Assembly: GCA_015493495.1 (NCBI GenBank)
Contig: WGDB01000077.1
Coordinates: 1-32,297 of the forward strand
From: Helicobacteraceae bacterium
GTDB taxonomy: Bacteria > Campylobacterota > Campylobacteria > Campylobacterales > Sulfurimonadaceae
Length of the DNA: 32,297 nt
Direction of reading: 5' to 3'
Shown: positions 6,786 to 20,151 of the stretch, in pieces
How positions within the stretch are numbered: position 1 is the first letter of the stretch
How the letters are laid out: each line of letters begins with the position of its first letter
Made by a program: the position numbers and the translations under genes
Notes under the pieces: generated by a model
Seen by the model: the letters and a program-made list of their open reading frames with translations, nothing else
Database searches by the model: none
What the model was told of the DNA's origin: nothing

Positions 6786-8030
6786 TTATCTTCCTTGAGC
6801 AGCATCTCCAAGACTCCACATTGGTAAGAAGATACCCAGTGCCAGAAGTAAAACAAGACCGGCAATAACACCCAACATAATAGGCTCAATAGCTTCTGCC
6901 AAACCATCGATAATAGCATCGAATCGCATTTTATAGTACTCTGTTACCTTATCGAGCATGGCATCAAGCTGACCAGATGATTCACCTGCCTTGACCATCT
7001 GTATAACCATGTTTTCAAAAAGTCCTGTCTCTTCAAGGCCCTCTTTAAGACTGCCTCCCTTTTCAACAGTCGCAAGGATTAGACCAAACTTCTTTTTCAT
7101 TGGCAAGTTGTCCGTCATATTAATAGCGGTCTCAAGAGCCTCAGAAATTGGAATACCTGAACGTACCAATTCAGAGAAGACCAGAGTGAATCGGCTTAAA
7201 GAAGAGTATAAAATAATCCCTTTAATGATTTTGGTACGAAGTAAAAGTTGATGAAACCTATATCTGAATTCCATGTTATTGTCGACCATGTATTTGATAC
7301 TTAAATAAATAGTAACAACACCTGCTAGTACATAGAGACCGTACTGTGTCAAGGCATCAGACAAAAATAGAAGGATCAATGTAGGTAGTGGTAACTCTGC
7401 ACCCAAAGAGGCAAAGATACTTTTAAACTGAGGAACAACAAAACTTAGTAGAATAGTAAAGGCCACTGCCATAGCTATCATAACATTACGAGGATAGGCC
7501 ATTGCTTTTTTAAATTTGATCACGTTTTTACGGATCTCTTCGAGCATATCACCCAAGTTGTTCAGAGCTTCTGCCATGTTACCAGTTTTCTCACCCAGAT
7601 CGATCATGGCTAGGGTAAGTCCACCTACTTGAGAACGGTAGGTATCCATAGACTTATAGAAACTTGAACCCGCATTAATATCTTCGGCACAGTTACTAAG
7701 AATATCTTTAAGGGTGGGATCGTCTGTTGCTTCTGCAAGATCCGAGAGAGACTGATGCAGAGAGATACCGGCATTGGTCATTACAGCAAGTTGTTGTATA
7801 GCTGCGATCAAGGCATCGGGTTTAAGTTTTTTCTTTTTAGCATTTTTAAAGATGTTGTCTTTAAACTGCGCAAATTGGTCTTCAAGCGGTGCAGAAGTTT
7901 CATCAAGTTTGACCAAGATACCGGAGTATTTGGCTTTGGCCATATAGTGAGCCTCTTTCTTGCTCTCTGCATAAAAGTTGTGCTCAGTCTTTTTACCACG
8001 CGCCAATACGGTAGCTGTAAAGTGTTTCAT
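6786..8030 (-). CDS. GspF/PilC/MshG-type inner-membrane platform protein
   Basis: Polytopic membrane protein of 414 residues that in type II secretion and type IV pilus machines forms the base on which pilin subunits are assembled, working with the cytoplasmic ATPase. Two copies of the T2SSF domain are visible: the first about residues 85-205 with a hydrophobic segment after AYPRN, the second about 285-410 ending in a long hydrophobic stretch (LGVIAGLVLLLALGIF). The conserved GEKTGNMAEAL and GESSGQLDAML segments occupy the same place in each repeat. An N-terminal cytoplasmic extension of about 80 residues precedes them. The start overlaps the end of the ATPase gene by four bases (ATGA). It is the last gene of the nine-gene operon and corresponds to mshG, or to ctsF of Campylobacter. 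Confidence 0.93.
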   Translation of the reverse strand: MKHFTATVLARGKKTEHNFYAESKKEAHYMAKAKYSGILVKLDETSAPLEDQFAQFKDNIFKNAKKKKLKPDALIAAIQQLAVMTNAGISLHQSLSDLAEATDDPTLKDILSNCAEDINAGSSFYKSMDTYRSQVGGLTLAMIDLGEKTGNMAEALNNLGDMLEEIRKNVIKFKKAMAYPRNVMIAMAVAFTILLSFVVPQFKSIFASLGAELPLPTLILLFLSDALTQYGLYVLAGVVTIYLSIKYMVDNNMEFRYRFHQLLLRTKIIKGIILYSSLSRFTLVFSELVRSGIPISEALETAINMTDNLPMKKKFGLILATVEKGGSLKEGLEETGLFENMVIQMVKAGESSGQLDAMLDKVTEYYKMRFDAIIDGLAEAIEPIMLGVIAGLVLLLALGIFLPMWSLGDAAQGR

Positions 8031-9769
8031 GATTTTACCACCCTTAAGATCTCTTCTAAGGTTGTTACGCCGCTAGCAACCTTCTTCATTCCATTAACAA
8101 ACATAGGTTCAAAGCCCTCTTTAAGTGCCTGTTCTATCATAGCATCTTTTGAAGCACTTTGGGCGATCATACTCGAAAGTGTCTCAGAAATAGGTAATAC
8201 TTCTGAGATCATCTCTCGTCCTGTATAACCTGCACCGTTACACTCTTTACAACCGGCCCCTTTATAAAAAATGGTATCGTCTGGAAAGTATTGTTTATAA
8301 GGTGCTAAGACAGAAGCTGGAAGCTGCTCTTCAACTTTGCAGGCTGGACAGATCTTACGGATAAGACGTTGTGCCTGAATAGCGACAACTGAGCCACTGA
8401 TAAGGTAAGGCTCTATCCCCATATCGACCATACGAGGAATGGAACTGACGGCATCGTTGGTGTGCAGGGTAGAGATAACCAAGTGACCGGTCAGTGCTGC
8501 TTTAATAGCAATCTCCAGTGTCTCTTGGTCACGGATCTCACCGATCATGATCTTGTCGGGATCCTGACGAAGGATAGAGCGGAGAGCATCAGCGAAGCTA
8601 AGTCCAACGCTGGCCTTAACCTGAACCTGTTGAATCAAGTTCATACGGTACTCTACAGGGTCTTCGACGGTAATGACTTTCTCTTCAACACTTCTCAGTT
8701 CATTTAGTGCACCATAAAGTGTCGTGGTCTTACCTGAACCGGTAGGACCGGTTACCAAGATAATACCGTAAGGTGTCATCAGAGCTTTGTGAAGCTTTTT
8801 GTATCCGGCCTCATCCATACCTGCATCTTCAAGTTTGACCAAGGCTTTCTCTTTGTCGAGTACACGCATAACGATAGACTCACCATACATAATTGGCAGT
8901 GTAGAGAAACGGAAGTCATACTCACGTCCACCAACTGGTGTAGAAAAACGTCCATCTTGAGGTTTGCGTTTTTCAGCAATATCCAAGTTGGCAAGGATCT
9001 TCAGTCTTGAGGCAAGCGGCGGGTAGATGTCTTTGTCGAAGATAAAGACTTCAGAGAGTTTGCCATCAATTCTGGCACGGACCGTACAGTTATTCTCTGT
9101 AGGTTCAATGTGAATATCACTTGCACGTGCTTTAATACAAGCTTTTAAGATGACTTCGATGAGTTGCAAGATAGAAGAAGCTTCAGCAGCATCTTTGGTC
9201 TGTTCTCTACCTATGGAGTTTAACTCGTTACGAATGTTGATCACAAGCTCTTTGACACTGTCTTTAAGTTCAACTTTAAAAAGATAAGCCTGGATCTGCT
9301 TTTCAGTTGCTACGGCAATATCTATAGGTTTTCTAGGGAAGAGTCGTTGAATGGCCTCTTGTGCTTCGATATTAAGAGGATCTAAAAAAGCAATAGTGAC
9401 AGAGAGGTCGTTCTCTTTAATAGGGAGGGCATTGAAACGTTTGAGCTGTGAAAGAGGTATGCGGTCTGTTAATCTATAGTCCATGTCGATCGAATCTAGA
9501 TCTAAAAATTGGAAGTCCATCACTTCTGCAAGGTGCTGCATCACCGATTGCGCATCTAAAAAATGGTATTGTTTAATGATTGATATATCATATTGCCCAG
9601 AGCGTATCTGCTCAACTACAAATCTTTTGACAAAGTTGACAGAGACTGCACCGACTTTAGTCAATGTCTCAAGCAGAGTATCGTTATCTACACCTGCCCG
9701 TTGAAGTCTGTCGATTTGCTCTTTAGAGATATGACCTTGGGCTAATAAATCGGTGGTGATTCTATCCAT
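8027..9769 (-). CDS. GspE/PilB/MshE-type assembly ATPase
   Basis: Cytoplasmic hexameric ATPase powering pilus or pseudopilus assembly, 580 residues. The N-terminal 150 residues resemble the MshEN/T2SSE N-domain. The catalytic part shows Walker A (GPTGSGKTTT, 341-350), an Asp box (VEDPVEYR, about 369-375), Walker B (PDKIMIGEIRD, about 404-414) and a His box (GHLVISTLHTND, about 428-439). Four cysteines in two CxxC pairs (474/477 and 507/510) form the zinc site of assembly ATPases, which retraction ATPases of the PilT type lack. No second ATPase of the PilT type is in the window. Placed between a small periplasmic protein gene and the platform gene; equivalent to mshE or ctsE. Confidence 0.95.
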   Translation of the reverse strand: MDRITTDLLAQGHISKEQIDRLQRAGVDNDTLLETLTKVGAVSVNFVKRFVVEQIRSGQYDISIIKQYHFLDAQSVMQHLAEVMDFQFLDLDSIDMDYRLTDRIPLSQLKRFNALPIKENDLSVTIAFLDPLNIEAQEAIQRLFPRKPIDIAVATEKQIQAYLFKVELKDSVKELVINIRNELNSIGREQTKDAAEASSILQLIEVILKACIKARASDIHIEPTENNCTVRARIDGKLSEVFIFDKDIYPPLASRLKILANLDIAEKRKPQDGRFSTPVGGREYDFRFSTLPIMYGESIVMRVLDKEKALVKLEDAGMDEAGYKKLHKALMTPYGIILVTGPTGSGKTTTLYGALNELRSVEEKVITVEDPVEYRMNLIQQVQVKASVGLSFADALRSILRQDPDKIMIGEIRDQETLEIAIKAALTGHLVISTLHTNDAVSSIPRMVDMGIEPYLISGSVVAIQAQRLIRKICPACKVEEQLPASVLAPYKQYFPDDTIFYKGAGCKECNGAGYTGREMISEVLPISETLSSMIAQSASKDAMIEQALKEGFEPMFVNGMKKVASGVTTLEEILRVVKS

Positions 9770-9777
9770 AATAACTC

Positions 9778-10326
9778 CTACCAGTAGATATGACGTTTTG
9801 TCATCTGCTTGTTTTGATACTCTTCTATGATCATTTTAGGAGAAGGACCACTTTTGGTGACATAAAGACGGTACATCTTAGTAGGGTCCTTCGGGTCTTT
9901 GTAATTGTAACGACGTTTTTGTTTAGATCCGCTGTCATGTGTGTAAAGATCAAAAACTGTAGACAAGACATACTCTGTAGTTGGGAGTCTTACAGGTTTA
10001 AGGTCGTATTGATCGCTTAAGGCATGTATCAATAGCTTTTTCTGCATTAAAATTACCGAAAAGTAGGCAGCATTTGCACGAGACTCAGGTGTTGCCTTGA
10101 GTGCGACAATAGGAAGTGCCAATTTGTCAATACGATCAGCGTTAAGACAAGAAAATGCATAGATAGAGAGCAACTCTTCATCTGTAATATTCTGACGTAA
10201 TATATTTTCGTCTGTTTTACAAACCTCTTGAAATTTCTCTGCCTGATAGAGTTTAAAAGTATCTGTCTTTAAATCTGCTAAGAGAAGCAGGGGAGTTAAA
10301 GAGAGTAGAGCAATTAGTCTTTTCAT
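9778..10326 (-). CDS. Small periplasmic protein of unknown function in the pilus operon
   Basis: A 182-residue protein I do not recognise. The first 17 residues (MKRLIALLSLTPLLLLA) are a signal peptide, so it probably acts in the periplasm. The mature part is helical in its first two thirds, with two cysteines (in EVCKTDEN and FSCLNAD) that could form a disulfide, and a basic C-terminal part ending in RHIYW. Its ATG overlaps the stop of the preceding TPR protein gene (ATGA), and it sits just upstream of the assembly ATPase, so it is almost certainly produced with the machine. The standard MSHA order has no gene at this position; I infer an accessory or lineage-specific part of the apparatus. 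Weak TPR/Sel1-like helices are possible. Confidence 0.75.
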   Translation of the reverse strand: MKRLIALLSLTPLLLLADLKTDTFKLYQAEKFQEVCKTDENILRQNITDEELLSIYAFSCLNADRIDKLALPIVALKATPESRANAAYFSVILMQKKLLIHALSDQYDLKPVRLPTTEYVLSTVFDLYTHDSGSKQKRRYNYKDPKDPTKMYRLYVTKSGPSPKMIIEEYQNKQMTKRHIYW

Positions 10327-11237
10327 TTGAATGTTCCTTTTTTTATCTCAGTTAGCAGGGCCTTAGCTTTTATAGAACGAGATTTTTTATAATAACTGTT
10401 CAGCTTGTTAACTGCTTTGTCTTTTCTTCCTAGTTTTACTAAGGATTTAGCGTACAGTATGACACCGTCTTCAATCTTAGGGTTTAGCTTAAGGGTCTCT
10501 CTCGCATATTTATAGGATTGCGTATAGTCGCCTTTTCCATAATATTTATTAGCAATAAAGAGACTTAGTGCCGGCTTCTTCTTTCGATTGAAACGTTTAA
10601 TAACCCCTTTTAATTCATCATCAGAAGTCTGAACATGACCGACCTTCACCTCTTCTTGAGCTTGTTTGAGCACCGCCGTATTATGGGCGTCTAAGACTAC
10701 CACTTTAGTTATCTCTTTTTTAGGTGCTATAGGTTTAGTAGCAGCACTTTTTTTAGCAGCATGTCTTTTGGCAGCAAGGATTTTGGCTTTTCGACGTTTT
10801 AGAGCTTCTTTTTTACGTTGTGCTGCCTCTCTTCTTTTGAGTGCAAGTTCACGTGCACTTTGAGCGGCTTGTGTCTGTCGTTCTAACCGTTCTTGCTCTA
10901 GTTGAGCACTCAGAATCTCCCCTTTGACAATAGAAGTAAAGACAAATGAAGGCTGTAAGATATTTTGTGGAATATCTATTTTTTTGGTAACTGTAGCAAC
11001 TTCTCTCTTTGACGTAACAGTTTTTGTTTGAACGACTTTCGTAGTAACAGAGGGCTTTTTTGTTGAGAGCGTTATTGTCTTGTCTACACTGCTCTGTAAG
11101 ATGTCTGTAGCTAGATAGAAATAGCCAGAAACACCGGCAAGCACGGATATAAAAACGGCAGCACCAACATAACGCGGTAACATCTTTTTAAAGTGGTATT
11201 TAGACCATCTCTTTTCTAATTCAGGGACATCAAGCAT
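10323..11237 (-). CDS. Membrane-anchored TPR protein, MshN-like (possibly CtsX-like)
   Basis: About 304 residues: a short cytoplasmic N-terminus, one transmembrane helix near residues 24-45 (YVGAAVFISVLAGVSGYFYLA), a linker rich in Thr, Val and Lys, a long basic alanine/lysine/arginine helix or coiled coil about 110-175, and two or three TPR-like helix pairs about 205-300 (KYYGKGDYTQSYKYARETL). This matches MshN, a TPR protein encoded between mshM and mshE. In Campylobacter the position is taken by CtsX, a membrane protein reported to partner CtsP; whether the two are homologous I cannot tell. I choose the ATG at 11237 over the TTG at 11240 because AGGA lies seven bases before it. The start lies inside the end of the AAA ATPase gene. 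Confidence 0.8.
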   Translation of the reverse strand: MLDVPELEKRWSKYHFKKMLPRYVGAAVFISVLAGVSGYFYLATDILQSSVDKTITLSTKKPSVTTKVVQTKTVTSKREVATVTKKIDIPQNILQPSFVFTSIVKGEILSAQLEQERLERQTQAAQSARELALKRREAAQRKKEALKRRKAKILAAKRHAAKKSAATKPIAPKKEITKVVVLDAHNTAVLKQAQEEVKVGHVQTSDDELKGVIKRFNRKKKPALSLFIANKYYGKGDYTQSYKYARETLKLNPKIEDGVILYAKSLVKLGRKDKAVNKLNSYYKKSRSIKAKALLTEIKKGTFK

Positions 11238-12042
11238 CAATAAATCCTGTGTGTATAGCAGCCATCTCTATAAGTTTGGTAGGAATAGCATCAAATTTTA
11301 CGGCTGATGGGTTATTGTCTTCATACCAACTACAGATTTCAAAAAGTCCATAAAGCAACTTGTTTGTATCACGATAGTTTCCATTTGTAAATTGGTGTAT
11401 CGTTTTAACTGCCTTGTCGCTAAACATATTGGCAAGATCAAAAAAGTTAGCACGTAACAACTTCTTTTGTATATAGATCGTTAATTCAGAGGGAAGGGCA
11501 TTTTGTAACTCTTGACTCTCCCATATACGTGTTTGAAAGTGCTCTTTTGCGATCAAGTCCTCTTTTTGTGTTTTATGAAGTGCAAAAATAAACTTCACTT
11601 TTCTAGAATCAGAGATCAGTCTAATCTTTTCCATCAAGGATTCAGAATAAAGTTGGGCCTCATCCAAGATAACCACTGGTGTTACCTCCACCTCAAAATG
11701 GTTAGCAAGTTCCATGAACTGTGTAAAATTCAGATGCTCGTTGGTATTGAAGCGAAAGATCTCATATGCAAGTACTTTGAAAAACTCTATCTCGTCTATA
11801 ATAGGTGTTTGAATATAGACGACCTTCTGCTTAGGTGAGAGCTCTTTGTACAGCTTGTTAAGCATCATACTTTTACCCGTTCCAGGTTTACCAAAAACAA
11901 GGATCATCTTAAGTGGTTTTTGAATAGCCTCTTTTAAGGCGTGATAGATGGCAACACTACGGTCTAATTGAACGTAGTCTTTTGAGTCAACAATATCCTG
12001 AAAGACCTCTTTTGAATTGTGAAATACTTTAGAGCTCTTCAT
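11230..12042 (-). CDS. ExeA/MshM-type AAA ATPase (CtsP-like)
   Basis: Cytoplasmic or membrane-associated P-loop ATPase of 270 residues with Walker A (GKPGTGKS, about 51-58) and Walker B (PVVILDEAQ), followed by a sensor region and a helical lid (FTNGNYRDTNKLLYG). This is the AAA_22 type found in ExeA of Aeromonas, which helps assemble the secretin, and in MshM. Campylobacter CtsP, needed for DNA uptake, is a nucleotide-binding protein in the same position. ExeA itself has an extra C-terminal peptidoglycan-binding domain; this protein ends without one, as MshM does. It overlaps the secretin gene by 14 bases at its start and the TPR gene by 8 at its end, indicating coupled translation. Confidence 0.88.
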   Translation of the reverse strand: MKSSKVFHNSKEVFQDIVDSKDYVQLDRSVAIYHALKEAIQKPLKMILVFGKPGTGKSMMLNKLYKELSPKQKVVYIQTPIIDEIEFFKVLAYEIFRFNTNEHLNFTQFMELANHFEVEVTPVVILDEAQLYSESLMEKIRLISDSRKVKFIFALHKTQKEDLIAKEHFQTRIWESQELQNALPSELTIYIQKKLLRANFFDLANMFSDKAVKTIHQFTNGNYRDTNKLLYGLFEICSWYEDNNPSAVKFDAIPTKLIEMAAIHTGFIDA

Positions 12043-13711
12043 CAGCCTCTTTACTTTCTAACGTGACATCATCTTCAGCAGTGACATTATCATCTTCGCT
12101 AAATGTAGCTTTGAGTCCCGCTTCCTCTTTAGTTACAGAAGTGTATCCAAGGTCTGCAATGGTAAGTGTATTACCTTCAGGCTTAATGATGTGTGGTTCA
12201 ATAACTATAACAAGTTCTTCCACATTTCTTACTTTTTCTTCATATTTAAAGAAATAACCAAGACCTGGTATGTCTCCTAAAAGAGGTACTTTGTTGGTCT
12301 TAAAGTTTTCCCGTGAACCAATAAGTCCACCTAGGATGATGCGGTTACCATCTTTAACGGTGACCACTGCAGAGAGTTGACGACGGTCAAGGTCAGGCGG
12401 CATAGTACGGTTTTCTTGATCCGCTGTATCACTAGAGATCGGCACACGTGTCTGACTTAAAGATGGATTCACCTTAAGCGTAATTGTGTCATTTTCACCA
12501 ATTTCAGGGGTGATATCTAATAAAACACCGGCAAAAACAGAGTTTATCATGTTGTTCTGTGTGGTGAAATTGCCACCAGCACTTGCAGAGTTTGATGCTT
12601 GCTCAATAGTGTAGAAGTACTCAGTACCTACTGTTATTAAGGCAGGTTGGTTGTTTAGGGTTAAGACTTTAGGGTTAGAAAGTGCCCGAACTTCACCTTG
12701 TTCTTTAAGGAACTTGATTACTTCGTTTAAAGACCCACCACCTGTTATTTGAACCATACCAGCGGCTTTGGTTGTAAGGGTCAAGAGATTACCAGTAGGA
12801 GTATATGTTCCTGATCCCGAACGAGAGACACTGTCAATAGCTACTTTGAAATTGGTAAGACCATAAAGTTGCGACCAATCTATACCTGTTGCTGATTTAT
12901 CATCAAAAAGGACGGCCATCATACTTACGTCAATAAGGACTTGGCGCTGGACCTTCTCTTGTAAAAGTTTAAGATAAGCATCAATACGTGCTTGCTGACG
13001 ACCTGTTGCTGAGATAGTGATAAGACCTGCATTTTTGTTGATAATAGGGGCTTCTGCCTGATACGCATCTTCAGGACGATTGAGCACACGTTGAAGTTCA
13101 AGATCTAACTCTTCCCAAAACTTCACTTCATCAGTAGACTCAATGGAAATACCAGACTTGTTGGAACCTGATTGGGAGTCCATACCACCCATACCGCCGC
13201 CACCAGGCATACCACCACCCATAGCACCACCGCCACCCATAGCACCGCCGCCCATAGCACCACCGCCCATACCACCTTGAGCGCCCATCTGTCCACCTAT
13301 AGAGGCAGAACTGGAACTTAACATAACATCAGTTGAACCCTTACTTTTACGTTGAGATAAAATATAATCGATGTTATATGTGATTGTTTTAAGGTATGAA
13401 ATACGTAAAATATCATTATCTATGGTAAAGTTCAGATTGTTCTCTGTTAAAAGAATCTCAAACACTTCATCAATAGTAAGGTTCTTAATATGGGTTTTAT
13501 TAAGTTTCTTGTCCATAAGCTTTTCAGTTTCACTGTCAGCAACAACCAAACTGTACTCACATGCTGTTGTTAGTTGATCAACATACTCACCAATAGTGGT
13601 TCCTTTTGCAGAAGAGATGCTAAAGAGTTCATAAGTACAATCGGCTTGCATAGAAGATGCTAAGATGACTGAAGCAGCTAAAGAGATCAGCTTTTTATTT
13701 AGGTTTTTCAT
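12029..13711 (-). CDS. Outer-membrane secretin, MshL/PilQ/GspD type (CtsD-like)
   Basis: Secretin that forms the outer-membrane channel of the machine. A signal peptide (about residues 1-25, ending SSMQA) is followed by an STN-like N-terminal domain (about 35-105). A glycine/methionine-rich linker comes next (about 140-180), then a secretin N-domain with IISATGRQQARIDAYL-type sequence. The C-terminal secretin barrel contains ALSNPKVLTLNNQPALITVG and GNRIILGGLIGSRE...VPLLGDIPGLGYFF, a strong family signature. The protein ends in an acidic tail. Two ATGs lie six bases apart; I use the second (13711), eight bases from AAGGA, though 13717 is possible. It corresponds to mshL, or ctsD in Campylobacter. 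Confidence 0.95.
   Translation of the reverse strand: MKNLNKKLISLAASVILASSMQADCTYELFSISSAKGTTIGEYVDQLTTACEYSLVVADSETEKLMDKKLNKTHIKNLTIDEVFEILLTENNLNFTIDNDILRISYLKTITYNIDYILSQRKSKGSTDVMLSSSSASIGGQMGAQGGMGGGAMGGGAMGGGGAMGGGMPGGGGMGGMDSQSGSNKSGISIESTDEVKFWEELDLELQRVLNRPEDAYQAEAPIINKNAGLITISATGRQQARIDAYLKLLQEKVQRQVLIDVSMMAVLFDDKSATGIDWSQLYGLTNFKVAIDSVSRSGSGTYTPTGNLLTLTTKAAGMVQITGGGSLNEVIKFLKEQGEVRALSNPKVLTLNNQPALITVGTEYFYTIEQASNSASAGGNFTTQNNMINSVFAGVLLDITPEIGENDTITLKVNPSLSQTRVPISSDTADQENRTMPPDLDRRQLSAVVTVKDGNRIILGGLIGSRENFKTNKVPLLGDIPGLGYFFKYEEKVRNVEELVIVIEPHIIKPEGNTLTIADLGYTSVTKEEAGLKATFSEDDNVTAEDDVTLESKEADEEL
13181..13297 (-). repeat. Gly/Met-rich tandem repeat inside the secretin gene
   Basis: The minus strand encodes a low-complexity stretch of about 39 residues built from GGGAM and GGMGG units. 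At DNA level it is an imperfect tandem of about 15 bases (plus strand CCCATAGCACCACCG and close variants). It falls between the STN-like domain and the secretin core, so it is probably a flexible linker. Slipped-strand length variation between strains would be expected and could stay in frame when whole units are gained or lost. Confidence 0.75.
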
Positions 13712-13727
13712 TTTCATTTTCCTTTTA

Positions 13728-14153
13728 TCAATTCACGTTAAATTGGATCTTGTCATTTTTGTTGTTAAGGTAAAGTACTAGATCTTTCTTTTTACTTTTA
13801 AGATGTGCTTCGCCACCAGAGACTTTTATAATAGTGTATTCTCTAATGCGATCTCCCTCTTTATACCATTTACCATTAACTTTAATATTTTTATTAATAG
13901 CTGATTCAAGTTTTAGCGGTTTGAGTCTGATACGTTTTTTTGCTTCTATAACTGTACGTGTCTTGCCACTTTTTGTCTTGATCGTCTTAAGATATAAAAA
14001 AGGACTTTTCACTTTTGCAATAGCTCTGTTACTTACACCAACACGAGGAGGCTTTATCTCTTCTATCTGCGTGTTAATGGTTTCATGCGAAGTACTAATC
14101 GGATCCGCATAAACGGCAAGTGGCAATAAGGCCACAAATAGTAACTTTTTCAT
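13728..14153 (-). CDS. Small periplasmic protein, PilP/MshK/CtsR-like by position
   Basis: About 141 residues with a signal peptide (MKKLLFVALLPLAVYA). The mature protein is basic and its C-terminal half looks like a small beta domain (NGKWYKEGDRIREYTIIKVSGGEAHLKSKKK), similar in style to PilP/GspC HR domains and to MshK: a 'work level' loop followed by repeated short strands. Such proteins link the inner-membrane PilN/PilO pair to the secretin. I use the ATG at 14153, whose A is shared with the TAA stop of the PilO-like gene (TAATG), rather than the upstream start of the ORF track, because it puts the signal peptide at the N-terminus. In Campylobacter the small gene next to ctsD is ctsR. Homology is suggested by place and architecture, not by a strong motif. 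Confidence 0.75.
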   Translation of the reverse strand: MKKLLFVALLPLAVYADPISTSHETINTQIEEIKPPRVGVSNRAIAKVKSPFLYLKTIKTKSGKTRTVIEAKKRIRLKPLKLESAINKNIKVNGKWYKEGDRIREYTIIKVSGGEAHLKSKKKDLVLYLNNKNDKIQFNVN

Positions 14154-14785
14154 TAATATGTAATCCCCCAAACTGATAGATTTAGGTCAAGGTTGATCTT
14201 TCTAGATGCATTCATATCCAAATCATGAATATCAACAACCAACTTGCTTTTTTCAATTGAGTTCATAAACTTCATGATGTTTTTATAATCACCTTCTGAA
14301 CTAATGTTGATATTAAGTACGTGACCGAACTTCGTTTTATCACTAGCAAGTTTGTTAGAGAAGAAATTTAGTTTTACCTTGTTGCGTCTCGCATGCTCGG
14401 AAATGGAGTCAATAAATGAACCCCAAATCTCTTCATCATAAAAGAGCTCGGGGATCTTTTCGATCTCTGCTTTAATATAGACGTTTTCACCCTTAAGCAT
14501 CTCTAAGTTTTGATTGAGTTGCGCGATCTCTTGATTTAACTTGGTAATCTGGCTTTCCGGGTGTTGTGCAAGATACTGCTTGTCAACAGTGATCTTCTCT
14601 TGCACAGCCTTTGATGCTGCTAGAATATCTTGATACCCCTTCTCAGCAGAGTCCCAAAAGACAAGATAAGAGAATGTAACCAAAGCAACAAATACCATAC
14701 CATAGATAAGTTTGACGTCTTTGTCACTCTTCTCGGCAAAACTCTGATCGATATCATAGAGATATTTTTCAATTATTGCACTCAT
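14153..14785 (-). CDS. PilO/MshJ-like inner-membrane alignment protein
   Basis: Bitopic membrane protein of 210 residues: about 25 cytoplasmic residues, one transmembrane helix (about 27-45, LIYGMVFVALVTFSYLVFW), a periplasmic coiled coil (about 55-110, with heptad-like LNQEIAQLNQNLEMLKGE) and a C-terminal alpha/beta domain (NINISSEGDYKNIMKFMNSIEKS) of the type found in PilO, GspM and MshJ. In these machines it pairs with PilN to connect the cytoplasmic ATPase platform to the periplasmic PilP and secretin. It overlaps the preceding PilM-PilN-like gene by four bases (ATGA) and the next gene by one, so the proteins are likely made in matched amounts. Confidence 0.82.
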   Translation of the reverse strand: MSAIIEKYLYDIDQSFAEKSDKDVKLIYGMVFVALVTFSYLVFWDSAEKGYQDILAASKAVQEKITVDKQYLAQHPESQITKLNQEIAQLNQNLEMLKGENVYIKAEIEKIPELFYDEEIWGSFIDSISEHARRNKVKLNFFSNKLASDKTKFGHVLNINISSEGDYKNIMKFMNSIEKSKLVVDIHDLDMNASRKINLDLNLSVWGITY

Positions 14786-16317
14786 TTTAGCACCGCCTTC
14801 ATCTCACTTAAGTAGCGATTTTTATCTTCATCAAATGTGATCTCTTCTAACACGAAGTGGAATCGTGTTGTCTTCTTTTTTGTCAAATACTCAAGTAGAC
14901 GAGTTATCTCTTTATCTTTATGAGAGATCATATGGAAGGTAAACCCTTTGAAATCTTTAGCTTGATTGTATGAAAGTTTTTCTAACTTGACGTTAAATTT
15001 GTTCAAATCAGCTGCAAATTCAGTTATAAGTTTGGCTTTCATAGGGTAGTCGACTTTGACATCATGAATCTTTTCAAGTGTATTCATCTGTCTGTCTAGC
15101 TCTGTTTGCTCGGCCAGTACAAGTTTGGTAACAGCAGTTTTCTCAACTGTTTTGAGGTTTATAGTTGCTTCTCTTGTTGTCTTGATACTGTGAATTTCAT
15201 TATATTCGGTGTCAAGGAGTGATTTGTTTAGCTCTTCAGCAAAAGTCAAACTCCAAAAAGCAACAGGATAAGAGAAGGCAACTACAAGGGCAAGTCCAGA
15301 GATAGCGATGAGTTTACCACTGGCGCGTTGCATGAACTTTGGTGGACGTGGATAAAGAGAGAAGTTACACTCATAACGTTCATCACTCTCTGTCATTGTA
15401 TAGAGGTGCATAAGTTGATGTACTTGATCTACATACTGACCGTTAGTATCAAAGCCATAGTCGAAGTCAAAAGTCTTTGAGATAAGACCTAGATAGGTCT
15501 GTGAGTACTCATCCAGACCTGCAATAGTACCGATCTGTGAACCGATGTAGATCTGGTCAATAGTCTCAAGTTCAAAGGCACGTTTAGAATAGGTAAGTAC
15601 ATCATTAATATGTAAAAAGAGTTCACCAAAAAGCTTAATAAGGTCGCGTTGGTACTCTTTGTTTTCAGCACCAAGTCCCTCTCCAGACAACATCTGTATG
15701 AAGAGTGGCATACCGATCTGCTCACCATAAAGCTCACTAAAACGTTCATACATCATACTGATAGAGTACTTTAGTGATTTGGTATAGACAAATTCTTGGT
15801 CGTTATAGATTGTGAAAAAAGCATCATTGTCTTGAAAATAGATATAACAGTGAACACCTACGTCTTGAATGATCTCTCTTTGGTAAAGACCTTTTATAAG
15901 TAATGGTACGGGTACGATCTGATCGATATACTTTATCTTTTCCACTGTGACTTCAAAGGTCTCATCCATCGTAATTGGGTCAACAATAAAGACATGGAAG
16001 TATCGCTCTTTGTCATTTAGTTGATGACTTGATTCGATATATTGGATGTTATAGGCAATCGCCATGTCTAGGGCAAGATCTTCATAAACCTTGTTCTCAA
16101 TGGCGAATGCCAGATCATCATCTGGTATGTTTTTACTTACGCCAACAAGTGCTGTTAAAAAATCATTGGTGTTAAGGTAGGACATTGCATACTGGGTTTT
16201 AGAAAAAGATATTGATCTAGCTTGCTCTAATTTACCAGATGCACCTACGTAGTAAGTCTCTTTGTAAGGGTTAATAGAAAGGACACTTGTAAATGCCGGT
16301 TGTTGCGTTTTACTCAT
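14782..16317 (-). CDS. PilM-PilN-like fusion (MshI/GspL type)
   Basis: First gene of the pilus/secretion operon, 511 residues. The N-terminal part (about 1-325) has no membrane segment and looks like the actin-like PilM/GspL cytoplasmic domain (VLSINPYKETYYVGAS at the start, later QIYIGSQIGTIAGLDEY). One transmembrane helix follows at about 336-362 (LIAISGLALVVAFSYPVAFW), then a coiled coil (about 365-425) and a PilN-like periplasmic alpha/beta domain. In classical type IV pili, PilM and PilN are separate proteins; joining them resembles GspL, and this is the place of mshI. It should recruit the assembly ATPase to the membrane. The ATG has TAGGA eight bases upstream. Confidence 0.82.
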   Translation of the reverse strand: MSKTQQPAFTSVLSINPYKETYYVGASGKLEQARSISFSKTQYAMSYLNTNDFLTALVGVSKNIPDDDLAFAIENKVYEDLALDMAIAYNIQYIESSHQLNDKERYFHVFIVDPITMDETFEVTVEKIKYIDQIVPVPLLIKGLYQREIIQDVGVHCYIYFQDNDAFFTIYNDQEFVYTKSLKYSISMMYERFSELYGEQIGMPLFIQMLSGEGLGAENKEYQRDLIKLFGELFLHINDVLTYSKRAFELETIDQIYIGSQIGTIAGLDEYSQTYLGLISKTFDFDYGFDTNGQYVDQVHQLMHLYTMTESDERYECNFSLYPRPPKFMQRASGKLIAISGLALVVAFSYPVAFWSLTFAEELNKSLLDTEYNEIHSIKTTREATINLKTVEKTAVTKLVLAEQTELDRQMNTLEKIHDVKVDYPMKAKLITEFAADLNKFNVKLEKLSYNQAKDFKGFTFHMISHKDKEITRLLEYLTKKKTTRFHFVLEEITFDEDKNRYLSEMKAVLK

Positions 16318-16688: not shown

Positions 16689-17582
16689 TTAGTTGATATA
16701 GCCTAGCTCTTCGAGCATCTGTTTATCATTGGTCCACCCTTTTTTCACTGAGACAAAAAGTTCAAGAAAGACTGTTTTGCCAGCGAGTTGTTCTATCTTT
16801 TGACGGGCACCTTGACCAATGCGTTTAATGGCAGCACCACCTTTACCAATAATAATCCCTTTTTGACTCTCTTTTTCAATAATTATAGTGGCACGAATAT
16901 GCTCAATTTTGCCTTTTTCTTCGATTTTATCGATCACGACATCAGATTCGTAAGGAATCTCATCGCTTATGTTGTCAAAAATTGCTTCGCGAATAAACTC
17001 TCTATATATATCACGCAGTCGCTCATCTGTTAGATCATCAGGATCAAAGAGGTATGGTGAGTTGTCAAGTTGTTTTGCAATTAGATCAAGAAGATTATTT
17101 TTCCCTACATTCTTTGTTACAGACATAGGAATCAGTGCCTCGAATGATGATGAAAAGGCATTGTACTCCATAATACGAGATAATAGCTCTTTTTGAGAGA
17201 CTTGATCTATCTTGGAGAGGGCAATAATATGTTTACGGCCTTTAGCCGTAACCTCCAAAAAATGCTTGTAGTGTTTAACTGAATCTGCTGCAGGCGCTAA
17301 GTAGACAAGCACATCACAATCACCAATGGCTTTGAGGGCCTCTTCAAGCATAAATTGGTTGAGTACTTTCTCTTTTTCATGTAAGCCCGGGGTGTCAACA
17401 AAGATAAGCTGATCATCATTGTGCATCACTATAGCGTTGAGACGACGGCGTGTTGCATTTGCTTTTTGTGACGTCATGGCAATCTTTTCACCAAGTATCC
17501 AGTTAAGCATGGTACTTTTTCCAGCATTAGGACGACCTACTAATGCAACGAAGCCAGCCTTATGCGCAGTAACGTTACTCAC
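16689..17582 (-). CDS. era: GTPase Era
   Basis: Essential GTP-binding protein that binds the 3' end of 16S rRNA and helps mature the small ribosomal subunit. Of its 297 residues, the N-terminal GTPase domain shows G1 (GRPNAGKS, about 16-23), G3 ([11 protein letters not shown]) and G4 (LSKIDQV). The C-terminal KH domain contains [21 protein letters not shown], the RNA-binding signature. The start is GTG, lying inside the last codons of rplI (GGTGAGTAA), an 8-base overlap, with GAGGT placed six bases upstream. In Campylobacter and Helicobacter, as I recall, hslV and hslU lie between rplI and era; here they are absent. Confidence 0.97.
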
Positions 17583-18021
17583 CGATGACCTCTAAGTGAA
17601 TTGTTCCGTGCATACCGTGGCCAAGTTTAAAGTCAAGGTCATGAATTCCTGTACTTTTAATCGCTTCTTTGTGGTTTATATGCTTTTTGTCGATCTCTAA
17701 ATTATGCTGCTCTTTAAGTGCATGTGCGATCTCATCTTTAGTTACTGCTCCAAAAAGGTGACCTGTATTACCCAGCTTTTTAGTGATGGTTACTTTAACT
17801 TTGTCAAGCTTTTCAGCAAGTACTTTCAGGTCAGTAAGCTCTTGTGCCTCACTTTCAGCTTTTTTGCGTTCTGCTGAAGCATGCTTTTTAAGGACTTCAT
17901 TAGTTGCGACTTTAGCAAGACCTTTTCCTACTAAGAAGTTTTGACCATAGCCATCTTTAACTTCCTTGACTTCACCTGCTTTTCCAAGCCCTTTAACATC
18001 TTTGATCAATAATACTTTCAT
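17575..18021 (-). CDS. rplI: Large ribosomal subunit protein bL9
   Basis: Ribosomal protein L9 of 148 residues, the usual length. The N-terminal rRNA-binding domain reads [28 protein letters not shown], the family signature including the conserved DGYGQNFL. A long connecting helix (about 40-75, [22 protein letters not shown]) and the C-terminal domain ([13 protein letters not shown], later [23 protein letters not shown]) follow. AGGA precedes the ATG by six bases. It heads a two-gene unit with era and lies downstream of the FTR-rhodanese gene, from which a hairpin separates it. Confidence 0.97.
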
Positions 18022-18137: not shown

Positions 18138-18857
18138 TTATTGCTCTTTTTCACCAGGAAATGAGACAATTCCATAAGAGAGATTACCAACTTTAGTGTA
18201 ACCCATGTCTGCCAAGATACGGGCACAGTGTGCACTACGGCTACCAACGTGACAGTAGACGATGACATTTTCATCTTGTGCCAGTTTAGCATCATCCAAG
18301 GCAGCAAAGAAGTTACTGGTTGGAATGATCTTGTCTGCTCCCTTAATATGACCCATCTGCCACTCCATTGGCTCACGAACATCTACAAGCGTAAAGTTGA
18401 CCATACCCAAGTCTCTTGCTTCGAGTAGGGCAATAAGCTCATCACCATCAAGTTCATCTTTGTCCACTAAAACAGTACACTCCTCTTTACTAAGACCACG
18501 TGAGTGTTGGTGTACTACCTCTTCGATGACCTCTTCTTGTGCTTGTGCAGCAGCATATTCAGGCGTACAGAAGATCTGACAGTGACAAACACCATCTTCA
18601 GGGATCTCTTTTTCAATAGCTGGAGGGCAAGGACAGACTCTGTCATCTGCCTCACCTGTGACAAAGAAACAAGGACAGTAGCGTTTGCCATGCATCAACT
18701 TGTTTCTTGTGAGTCCATACTGTATACCTTGGTTGATCTCTTGGTCTGGGTTATACGCCCAACCAAACTGTGCAACCACCTTGTCGGTAAAACGGACGGT
18801 CTTTTCTAATGTGTCTTTAAACTCTTGTGATTCTGGATCGATTTTTACAGTACTCAT
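18138..18857 (-). CDS. Ferredoxin-thioredoxin reductase catalytic domain fused to rhodanese
   Basis: A 239-residue fusion. Residues about 10-105 are an FTR catalytic (beta) domain: CPC at 61-63, CPC at 75-77 and CHC at 91-93, followed by QIF. By analogy with plant FTR, C61, C75, C77 and C91 should hold a 4Fe-4S cluster and C63 with C93 form the redox disulfide; the spacings (11 and 13) differ from the plant 16 and 8. Residues about 125-239 are a rhodanese domain with LVDVREPMEWQMGHI and the active-site loop YCHVGSRS (C202). No FTR variable subunit is nearby. It may reduce a thioredoxin-like partner or pass sulfur through the rhodanese cysteine; both are inference. AAAGG lies six bases before the ATG; argG ends 58 bases upstream and may share its transcript. 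Confidence 0.9.
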   Translation of the reverse strand: MSTVKIDPESQEFKDTLEKTVRFTDKVVAQFGWAYNPDQEINQGIQYGLTRNKLMHGKRYCPCFFVTGEADDRVCPCPPAIEKEIPEDGVCHCQIFCTPEYAAAQAQEEVIEEVVHQHSRGLSKEECTVLVDKDELDGDELIALLEARDLGMVNFTLVDVREPMEWQMGHIKGADKIIPTSNFFAALDDAKLAQDENVIVYCHVGSRSAHCARILADMGYTKVGNLSYGIVSFPGEKEQ

Positions 18858-18915: not shown

Positions 18916-20151
18916 TTACTTGTTACGTGTCTTACCCGCAATAATAAAACGAAGTGCATTAAGTTTAATAAACCCTTCTGCATCTTTTTGGTTATAGACT
19001 TCATCTTCTTCAAATGTAGAGTACTCAGGGTTGAAGAGGGTGTCAGCAGACTGACGCCCCACTACAATAACATTACCCTTATACAGTTTAAGACGTACGA
19101 CACCGTTGACAAAGGTTTGTGTCTTGTCTATAGATGCTTGTAACATCTCGCGTTCAGGAGAGAACCAAAAACCGTTATAAATTAGTTTTGCATAACGTGG
19201 CATCATCTCATCTTTAAGGTGTGCCGCTTCACGGTCAAGTGTGATCGATTCGATGGCACGGTGAGCTTTAAGCATGATCGTTCCACCTGGAGTCTCATAG
19301 CAGCCACGTGCCTTCATACCAACAAAGCGGTTCTCCACGATGTCAATACGGCCAATACCATGTTTGTTACCGTAGTCGTTGAGTGTCTTCAGCATTGTTG
19401 CCGGACTTAGTGCTTCACCGTTAAGTGTTACAGGGTCACCATGTGCGTAACCGATCTCGATGTACTCTGCTTCATCTGGAGCGTTTTCAGGAGAGTTGGT
19501 CCACAACCACATCTCATCTTCTGGTTCTGCGTTAGGGTCTTCGAGGTGAAGACCTTCATAAGAGATGTGCAGAAGATTGGCATCCATAGAGTAAGGACTT
19601 ACCGTTGGGTTACCATCTTTGTCCATGTGCTTCTGATCAATAGAAATACCATGCTCTTTTGCATATGAGAGCAGTTTCTCACGAGAGTTAAGGTCCCACT
19701 CTCTCCATGGTGCGATAATGGTCAGAGTAGAGTCTTGACCCAAGTAACCCATCTCAAAACGTACTTGATCATTACCTTTACCTGTAGCACCATGGCTTAC
19801 ACCATCCGCACCAGTGATCTTCGCGATCTCTGCTTGACGTTTGGCGATTAGTGGACGGGCGATAGAAGTACCTAGAAGATACTCACCCTCATAGATCGCA
19901 TTGGCACGGAACATTGGGTAGACAAAATCTTTTACAAACTCTTCACGAAGATCGTCAATGAAAATATTTTCAGGTTTGATCCCAAGCTCTAATGCTTTAA
20001 CACGTGCTGGTTCTAGCTCTTCACCTTGACCGAGGTCTGCAGTAAAGGTTACGACTTCACACTTATACTCATCTTGGAGCCACTTTAAAATAACACTGGT
20101 GTCGAGTCCGCCTGAGTAGGCAAGTACAACTTTTTTGACTTCTTTTTTCAT
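18916..20151 (-). CDS. argG: Argininosuccinate synthase
   Basis: Cytoplasmic enzyme joining citrulline and aspartate with ATP, the penultimate step of arginine synthesis. The 411-residue protein has the nucleotide-binding [10 protein letters not shown] loop at 11-20, [15 protein letters not shown] (citrulline/aspartate binding) near 120-135, and the usual C-terminal segments ([19 protein letters not shown] and YETPGGTI). Length is standard. The ATG has GAGGG six bases upstream. The gene is divergent from the MFS gene; a CATAAT -10 candidate and an 18-base palindrome lie in between. As I recall, Campylobacter jejuni also has argG next to rplI. Confidence 0.97.

Follow-up and report, generated by a model that had tools for sequence, protein, structure and literature searches.

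A single 239-residue protein encoded in a Sulfurimonadaceae genome joins the catalytic domain of ferredoxin-thioredoxin reductase (FTR) to a rhodanese, and of the 298 Campylobacterota genomes sampled, at least 87 were found to encode the same fused form. Sequence comparisons support the view that the two domains make up a lasting functional unit. Our preferred reading, to which we give a probability of roughly 0.4, is that the fusion acts as a cytoplasmic ferredoxin-dependent reductase of persulfides (or of thiosulfate sulfur). Both domains and fusions of the FTR catalytic subunit (FTRc) are already known; the pairing of FTRc with a rhodanese in one chain appears to be new. No description of an FTRc-rhodanese fusion was found in the open-access literature searched.

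The window, i.e., the whole stretch of 32,297 nucleotides that was analyzed, carries the gene and its elements at the following positions.

18138..18857, minus strand: FTR catalytic domain-rhodanese fusion protein, 239 aa, ORF from ATG to stop
18513..18809, minus strand: FTR catalytic (FeThRed_B) domain, residues 17-115, from Pfam PF02943 and alignment to 1DJ7, 4TPU, and 7PWE
18579..18677, minus strand: six FTR cysteines C61, C63, C75, C77, C91, and C93, arranged as CPC-x11-CPC-x13-CHC
18567..18569, minus strand: C97, the extra cysteine of the fusion family, found in 119/119 distinct fused sequences
18435..18512, minus strand: interdomain linker, residues 116-141, with a drop in AlphaFold2 confidence at residues 111-120
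18159..18434, minus strand: rhodanese domain, residues 142-233, from Pfam PF00581 and fold matches to rhodaneses
18234..18257, minus strand: rhodanese active-site loop YCHVGSRS with the catalytic C202, from sequence and the conserved loop

The sequence-only reading had placed an FTR catalytic domain and a rhodanese in one 239-residue protein, and both Pfam scores lay far above their cut-offs. FeThRed_B matched residues 17-115 with an E value of 6.5e-31 (107 bits against a cut-off of 22) and Rhodanese matched residues 142-233 with an E value of 3.1e-16 (60 bits against 22.2). These were the only Pfam domains of the protein, and a whole-genome search with the PF02943 profile gave a match at the same place as its FTR domain. 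Cysteines occupy positions 61, 63, 75, 77, 91, 93, 97, 127, 202, and 211. The six FTR cysteines and the YCHVGSRS loop, both described before, were located residue by residue: C61-P-C63, C75-P-C77, and C91-H-C93 pair one to one with the six cysteines of Synechocystis FTRc (1DJ7), in the CPC/CPC/CHC order of the PF02943 family, and Y201-C202-H-V-G-S-R-S contains the six-residue loop, opening with the catalytic cysteine, by which rhodaneses are recognized. From established FTR biochemistry and the alignment with 1DJ7, we take C63 and C93 to be the redox-active pair and C61, C75, C77, and C91 to be the 4Fe-4S ligands. The spacing of the CxC motifs is unlike that of plant FTR, as had also been claimed, with x11/x13 in the fusion versus x16/x8 in the plant and cyanobacterial type (1DJ7). 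What had been overlooked is the invariant C97, the presence of two more FTRc genes in the same genome, and the fact that absence of the FTR variable subunit (FTRv) is the rule outside oxygenic phototrophs. The N terminus is hydrophilic, and inspection of its sequence revealed no signal-peptide-like stretch, so the protein is most likely located in the cytoplasm. Assignment to the FtrB double-selenoprotein model (NF041072) was rejected, as the score was 70.5 bits against a cut-off of 160, the redox-active positions that hold Sec in that model are occupied by cysteines, and there is no in-frame TGA.

The PF02943 profile search covered all 298 Campylobacterota genomes and returned a match in 101 of them. 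The same domain pair, sought in other genomes, was found in the at least 87 mentioned above, a tally obtained from frame lengths and extracted proteins, and conservation on this scale rules out chance and gene-prediction error. Across 119 distinct fused proteins, the spacing followed CPC-x(11-18)-CPC-x13-C[H/R]C. The six FTR cysteines, C97, and the rhodanese cysteine were invariant in all of these, CHC with its active-site H92 was kept in 118, and the rhodanese loop read YC[HYLF]xGSRS in every one; C127 and C211 varied among fused relatives. All FTR cysteines, C97, and C202 were invariant again in a set of 67 sequences. At least 543 relatives were found in the GTDB contig collection, the best 80 of which all belonged to Campylobacterota. 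The fusion is kept across most free-living members of the phylum, and many host-associated relatives among the 298 genomes do without it.

Some individual loci deviated from this pattern. Two deep-branching stand-alone FTRs (L110 and L117) lack C97, reading CHCGIF[IV]KK, whereas every fused FTR retains it. Sulfurimonas sp. UBA6014 carries two tandem full FTR-rhodanese fusions between argG and rplI (L107:5001-6475). In one genome of the Nautiliaceae-like family f5 (G039:C1:187723-188386), the fusion frame is apparently interrupted by stops in the FTR part, and the rhodanese part is open.

The two domains were also encountered as separate adjacent genes. When plasmids were searched with the fusion as the query, the sole match over most of its length was on a plasmid of Sulfurovum mangrovi, where FTR and rhodanese are neighboring genes on the same strand; each has its own clean ORF, and the two ORFs are in different frames and 65 bases apart. 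The S. mangrovi rhodanese was compared with the 298 genomes, and its six best matches (64 to 71% identity; G204, G219, G221, G225, G264, and G284) each lay directly downstream of a stand-alone FTR gene on the same strand. Two of these genomes, G204 and G284, held the linked pair and no fused copy. That the domains are joined in most genomes and encoded side by side in others argues strongly that they act in concert. The functional link originally suggested thus gained from phylum-wide fusion, invariant catalytic residues, and adjacency in Sulfurovum-like genomes, whereas the missing variable subunit, which had been counted as a further clue, did not hold up. The FTR- and rhodanese-domain trees were too short to distinguish one fusion event from several, and trees in which all fused rhodaneses were held together were not rejected (p-AU 0.57). 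In the public record of S. mangrovi, the halves are named separately, as ferredoxin-thioredoxin reductase and rhodanese; judged by this one record, the pairing is easy to overlook. The record itself is 395 kb long and labelled as a plasmid, and at the locus in question (L076; 371907-384649) the usually chromosomal genes gatC, pilT, and dapE stand beside the FTR/rhodanese pair, in the gene order seen at loci of related genomes.

The host genome (2.57 Mb, 99.9% complete, 4.6% contamination) contains three FTRc genes, namely the fusion, a stand-alone FTR of 124 aa, and a divergent form of 205 aa. The divergent protein (L003:1210-1827, G000:C44), which was also seen at L068, L069, and L070 with a length of about 205 aa, has the CPC/CPC/CHC cysteines without C97 and a C-terminal region of roughly 100 residues that matches no Pfam family. 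FTRv (PF02941) was not found in the host genome, nor in 101 Campylobacterota genomes searched with a Synechococcus control that was detected. The heterodimer with a variable subunit that distinguishes plant-type FTR, therefore, has no counterpart here, as the genome offers no FTRv partner. The observation that no variable subunit lies nearby was correct and extends to the entire genome. However, it carries no functional meaning, because FTRv is exclusive to oxygenic phototrophs (PMC9025218) and its absence from 101 of 101 genomes makes it the expected state.

A TrxB-like thioredoxin reductase is encoded in the host genome (341 bits, just below the cut-off of 343.5), and the fusion is thus not needed as a general thioredoxin reductase. 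This bears on the alternative that it reduces thioredoxin as plant FTR does, with the rhodanese as an incidental passenger. The homology of the FTR domain and the active-site H92, shared with plant FTR and kept in 118 of the 119 sequences, are compatible with such a role. Nevertheless, we consider it improbable, since the genome has both the TrxB-like reductase and a stand-alone FTRc, and a passenger would neither keep an invariant loop throughout the phylum nor reappear as a linked separate gene. The genome also contains three genes for POR-gamma-type ferredoxin-linked oxidoreductases. A PAPS/APS reductase was not found in it, the sole PF01507 match looking like MnmA by sequence, and the host therefore probably draws its sulfur from already reduced or sulfane forms.

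The AlphaFold2 model, based on 67 sequences, showed two well-formed domains with a mean pLDDT of 89.5, a dip at residues 111-120, and a pTM of 0.64. We read it as two confidently predicted domains whose mutual orientation is unsettled. Foldseek returned rhodaneses first, including CoADR-RHD, Npsr, and a persulfide dioxygenase-rhodanese, and matched the FTR half to the glutaredoxin/FDR fusion of Desulfotalea (7PWE) and to 1DJ7. With 1DJ7 the fusion shares the PF02943 domain, the six aligned cysteines, and the CHC histidine; the fused rhodanese and C97 are found in the fusion only. The best solved relatives of its FTR domain are the FDR of Methanosarcina acetivorans (4TPU) and the Grx-FDR of Desulfotalea psychrophila (7PWE), which, like the fusion, belong to the FDR pattern of a monomer-type FTRc that lacks FTRv and is fused to a partner. 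The second cysteine gap is close (x12 out of x14/x12 in these two proteins versus x13). They have CYC, however, whereas the fusion has CHC in 118 of 119 sequences and so lacks the active-site tyrosine of FDR. The partner is glutaredoxin in 7PWE and, going by the entry name, presumably rubredoxin in 4TPU, versus rhodanese in the fusion. C97, invariant in the fusion family, is absent from archaeal FDR as it is from Synechocystis FTRc.

These relatives raise a second alternative, a ferredoxin:disulfide reductase acting on the disulfide of a protein or a small molecule. The rhodanese would then serve as a docking, sensing, or thiol-relay module and not carry a persulfide, comparable to the glutaredoxin of Desulfotalea Grx-FDR. 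The closest solved relatives of the FTR domain are indeed disulfide reductases, a fusion of FTRc to a thiol-relay domain is already known (7PWE), and a flexible linker would suit a relay arm. However, the loop is of the full sulfurtransferase type (YC[HYLF]xGSRS in 119/119), and the rhodanese has a single catalytic cysteine and no CxxC pair. An invariant loop of this type favors persulfide chemistry over docking, and we regard the docking or relay function as unlikely.

Precedents for a rhodanese attached to a persulfide enzyme are available. Npsr and CoADR-rhodanese (3NTA, 3ICR, and 6PFZ) likewise carry a C-terminal rhodanese on a disulfide-reductase-type module and are probable functional analogues of the fusion. 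In these enzymes electrons pass from NADH to FAD and then to CoA within an unrelated reductase fold, whereas ferredoxin and a 4Fe-4S cluster are proposed here. Membership of the fusion in this group was rejected, as no FAD/NADH module was detected by Pfam, and the likeness is one of functional analogy. GlpE/PspE and Wolinella Sud (1QXN) resemble the fusion in rhodanese fold and six-residue loop; unlike it, they stand alone and have no built-in reductase. Sud of Wolinella is periplasmic. The persulfide dioxygenase-rhodanese BpPRF (5VE3) also combines a rhodanese with a persulfide-consuming enzyme, as the fusion is proposed to do. It oxidizes persulfide to sulfite with O2, and its non-rhodanese module has an unrelated metallo-hydrolase fold. 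In Npsr, sulfur is described as being taken up first by the rhodanese cysteine, where an FAD/CoA module reduces it (PMC7969121).

Chemically, the domain pair lends itself most naturally to reducing a persulfide on the rhodanese, and we propose the following sequence of steps. As suggested by the rhodanese fold and loop, C202 would be converted to a persulfide by accepting sulfane sulfur, for which thiosulfate, polysulfide, or a low-molecular-weight persulfide could be the donor. In analogy to FTR chemistry, reduced ferredoxin would deliver single electrons to the 4Fe-4S cluster on C61, C75, C77, and C91, and the C63/C93 disulfide beside the cluster would be opened to give a reactive thiol. In the step that would be novel, this thiol would attack the persulfide on C202 of its own chain or of the other chain in a dimer, so that sulfide leaves and C202 is restored. 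This sulfide may feed cysteine and Fe-S synthesis, or excess sulfane sulfur may be cleared in this way.

Several observations argue for a persulfide reductase. All 119 distinct fused sequences retain both active sites intact and without variation, and FTR and rhodanese form a unit even when unfused, as linked genes. By analogy, the fusion of rhodanese to other persulfide enzymes (CoADR-RHD and Npsr in 3icr, 3nta, and 6pfz; 5ve3) and of FTRc to other partner domains (rubredoxin in 4TPU and glutaredoxin in 7PWE) points in the same direction. The three POR-gamma genes, the separate TrxB-like reductase, the lack of a detectable PAPS/APS reductase in the host genome, and the missing signal peptide are consistent with it as well. 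On the other side, the predicted structure, with its pTM of 0.64 and low-confidence linker, does not show facing active sites, the gene context holds no sulfur partner, and the stand-alone FTR paralog in the host genome demonstrates that such an FTR also occurs without a fused rhodanese. The more specific version, a self-contained single chain whose 4Fe-4S disulfide reductase directly reduces its own rhodanese persulfide to yield sulfide from thiosulfate or sulfane sulfur across free-living Campylobacterota, is more doubtful.

FTR-type reductases are known to reduce thioredoxin and other disulfides, and to our knowledge none has been reported to act on a persulfide. The fusion suggests that 4Fe-4S enzymes of the FTR type handle sulfane sulfur, too. 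If true, this would add a third way of supplying the electrons that release rhodanese-bound sulfur, next to NADH/FAD/CoA and thioredoxin, and it would tie the assimilation or detoxification of sulfur to the pool of ferredoxin on which CO2 fixation runs in Campylobacterota of vents and sediments. Since the protein is small and probably soluble, the reaction is directly testable.

The genes flanking the fusion, which provide context outside the mechanism, are as follows.

18916..20151, minus strand: argG (argininosuccinate synthase), upstream neighbor, conserved in Sulfurimonadaceae
17575..18021, minus strand: rplI (ribosomal protein L9), downstream neighbor
16689..17582, minus strand: era (GTPase), downstream neighbor

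The order argG-[fusion]-rplI-(hslV-hslU)-era was restricted to Sulfurimonadaceae and family f8. Other families had other housekeeping neighbors, e.g., alaS or genes resembling panB and ruvB, and in Nautiliaceae and deep relatives the fusion comes immediately after a stand-alone FTR and before small unknown proteins. No sulfur-oxidation genes were found beside the fusion in the neighborhoods compared across families, and a sulfur-oxidation operon was therefore rejected.

The sequence-only reading had suggested a possible link between electron flow and sulfur handling in a sulfur-oxidizing lineage. As part of dissimilatory sulfur oxidation, the rhodanese would gather sulfane sulfur from the oxidation of thiosulfate or S0, and the FTR domain would couple it to ferredoxin, into which electrons might even flow. 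SoxB was found in 47 of 87 fusion carriers versus 7 of 211 non-carriers (298 genomes; one truncated SoxB counted), so that many carriers are likely sulfur oxidizers, although host-associated relatives without both drive this figure. Fisher's test of fusion against SoxB was strong phylum-wide, with the same families as the confounder, and the association breaks down within the carrier families. SoxB was missing from 40 of the 87 carriers, including 11 of 13 in family f10 and 5 of 5 in f5, and seven SoxB genomes had no fusion. SoxB was not found in the host genome, which does have one SoxY. Sox is periplasmic, whereas the fusion has no signal peptide, and no sulfur-oxidation gene adjoins it. A direct part in sulfur oxidation is thus very improbable, and the proposed link is weak. 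That the fusion is retained with or without Sox points instead to a core function in the cytoplasm, for instance in assimilating sulfur or in controlling sulfane sulfur.

Such retention, together with the argG-rplI-era neighbors, would also fit a core biosynthetic role as a sulfur relay. The rhodanese would then hand on its persulfide sulfur as S0, without releasing sulfide, to an acceptor in a biosynthetic pathway (tRNA thiolation, thiamine, or molybdopterin), and the FTR domain would only restore this acceptor or the rhodanese cysteine once either has formed a disulfide or become over-oxidized. The rhodanese domain scores against the rhodanese tails of MoeZ/MoeB, and MnmA is present in the host genome. 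However, no recognizable ThiF, MoeB, or MnmA gene lies directly beside the fusion in the neighborhoods read, and host-associated Campylobacterota keep tRNA thiolation, yet many of them have no fusion. We therefore judge a pure relay to be rather unlikely.

Further features of these neighborhoods should be noted. In the Nautiliaceae (L047, L048, L049, and L077-L088), the stand-alone FTR and the FTR-rhodanese are followed by proteins of 97 aa and roughly 110 aa that match no family and then by CiaB (DUF7897), so that the cluster links the CiaB family to FTR proteins. The genes hslV and hslU, which most Sulfurimonadaceae have between rplI and era, are missing from this place in the window (16689-18021), as they are from several Sulfuricurvum loci. 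No hslU above the cut-off was found in the host genome, the best score (90 bits) belonging to a ClpX-sized frame of 415 aa. Positions 6786-16317 of the window hold a secretion/pilus-like cluster with T2SSF, an MshEN-T2SSE ATPase, an AAA ATPase, a secretin, and PilO-like genes. A protein of 511 aa that matches no Pfam family is encoded there as well, and its position beside era is conserved.
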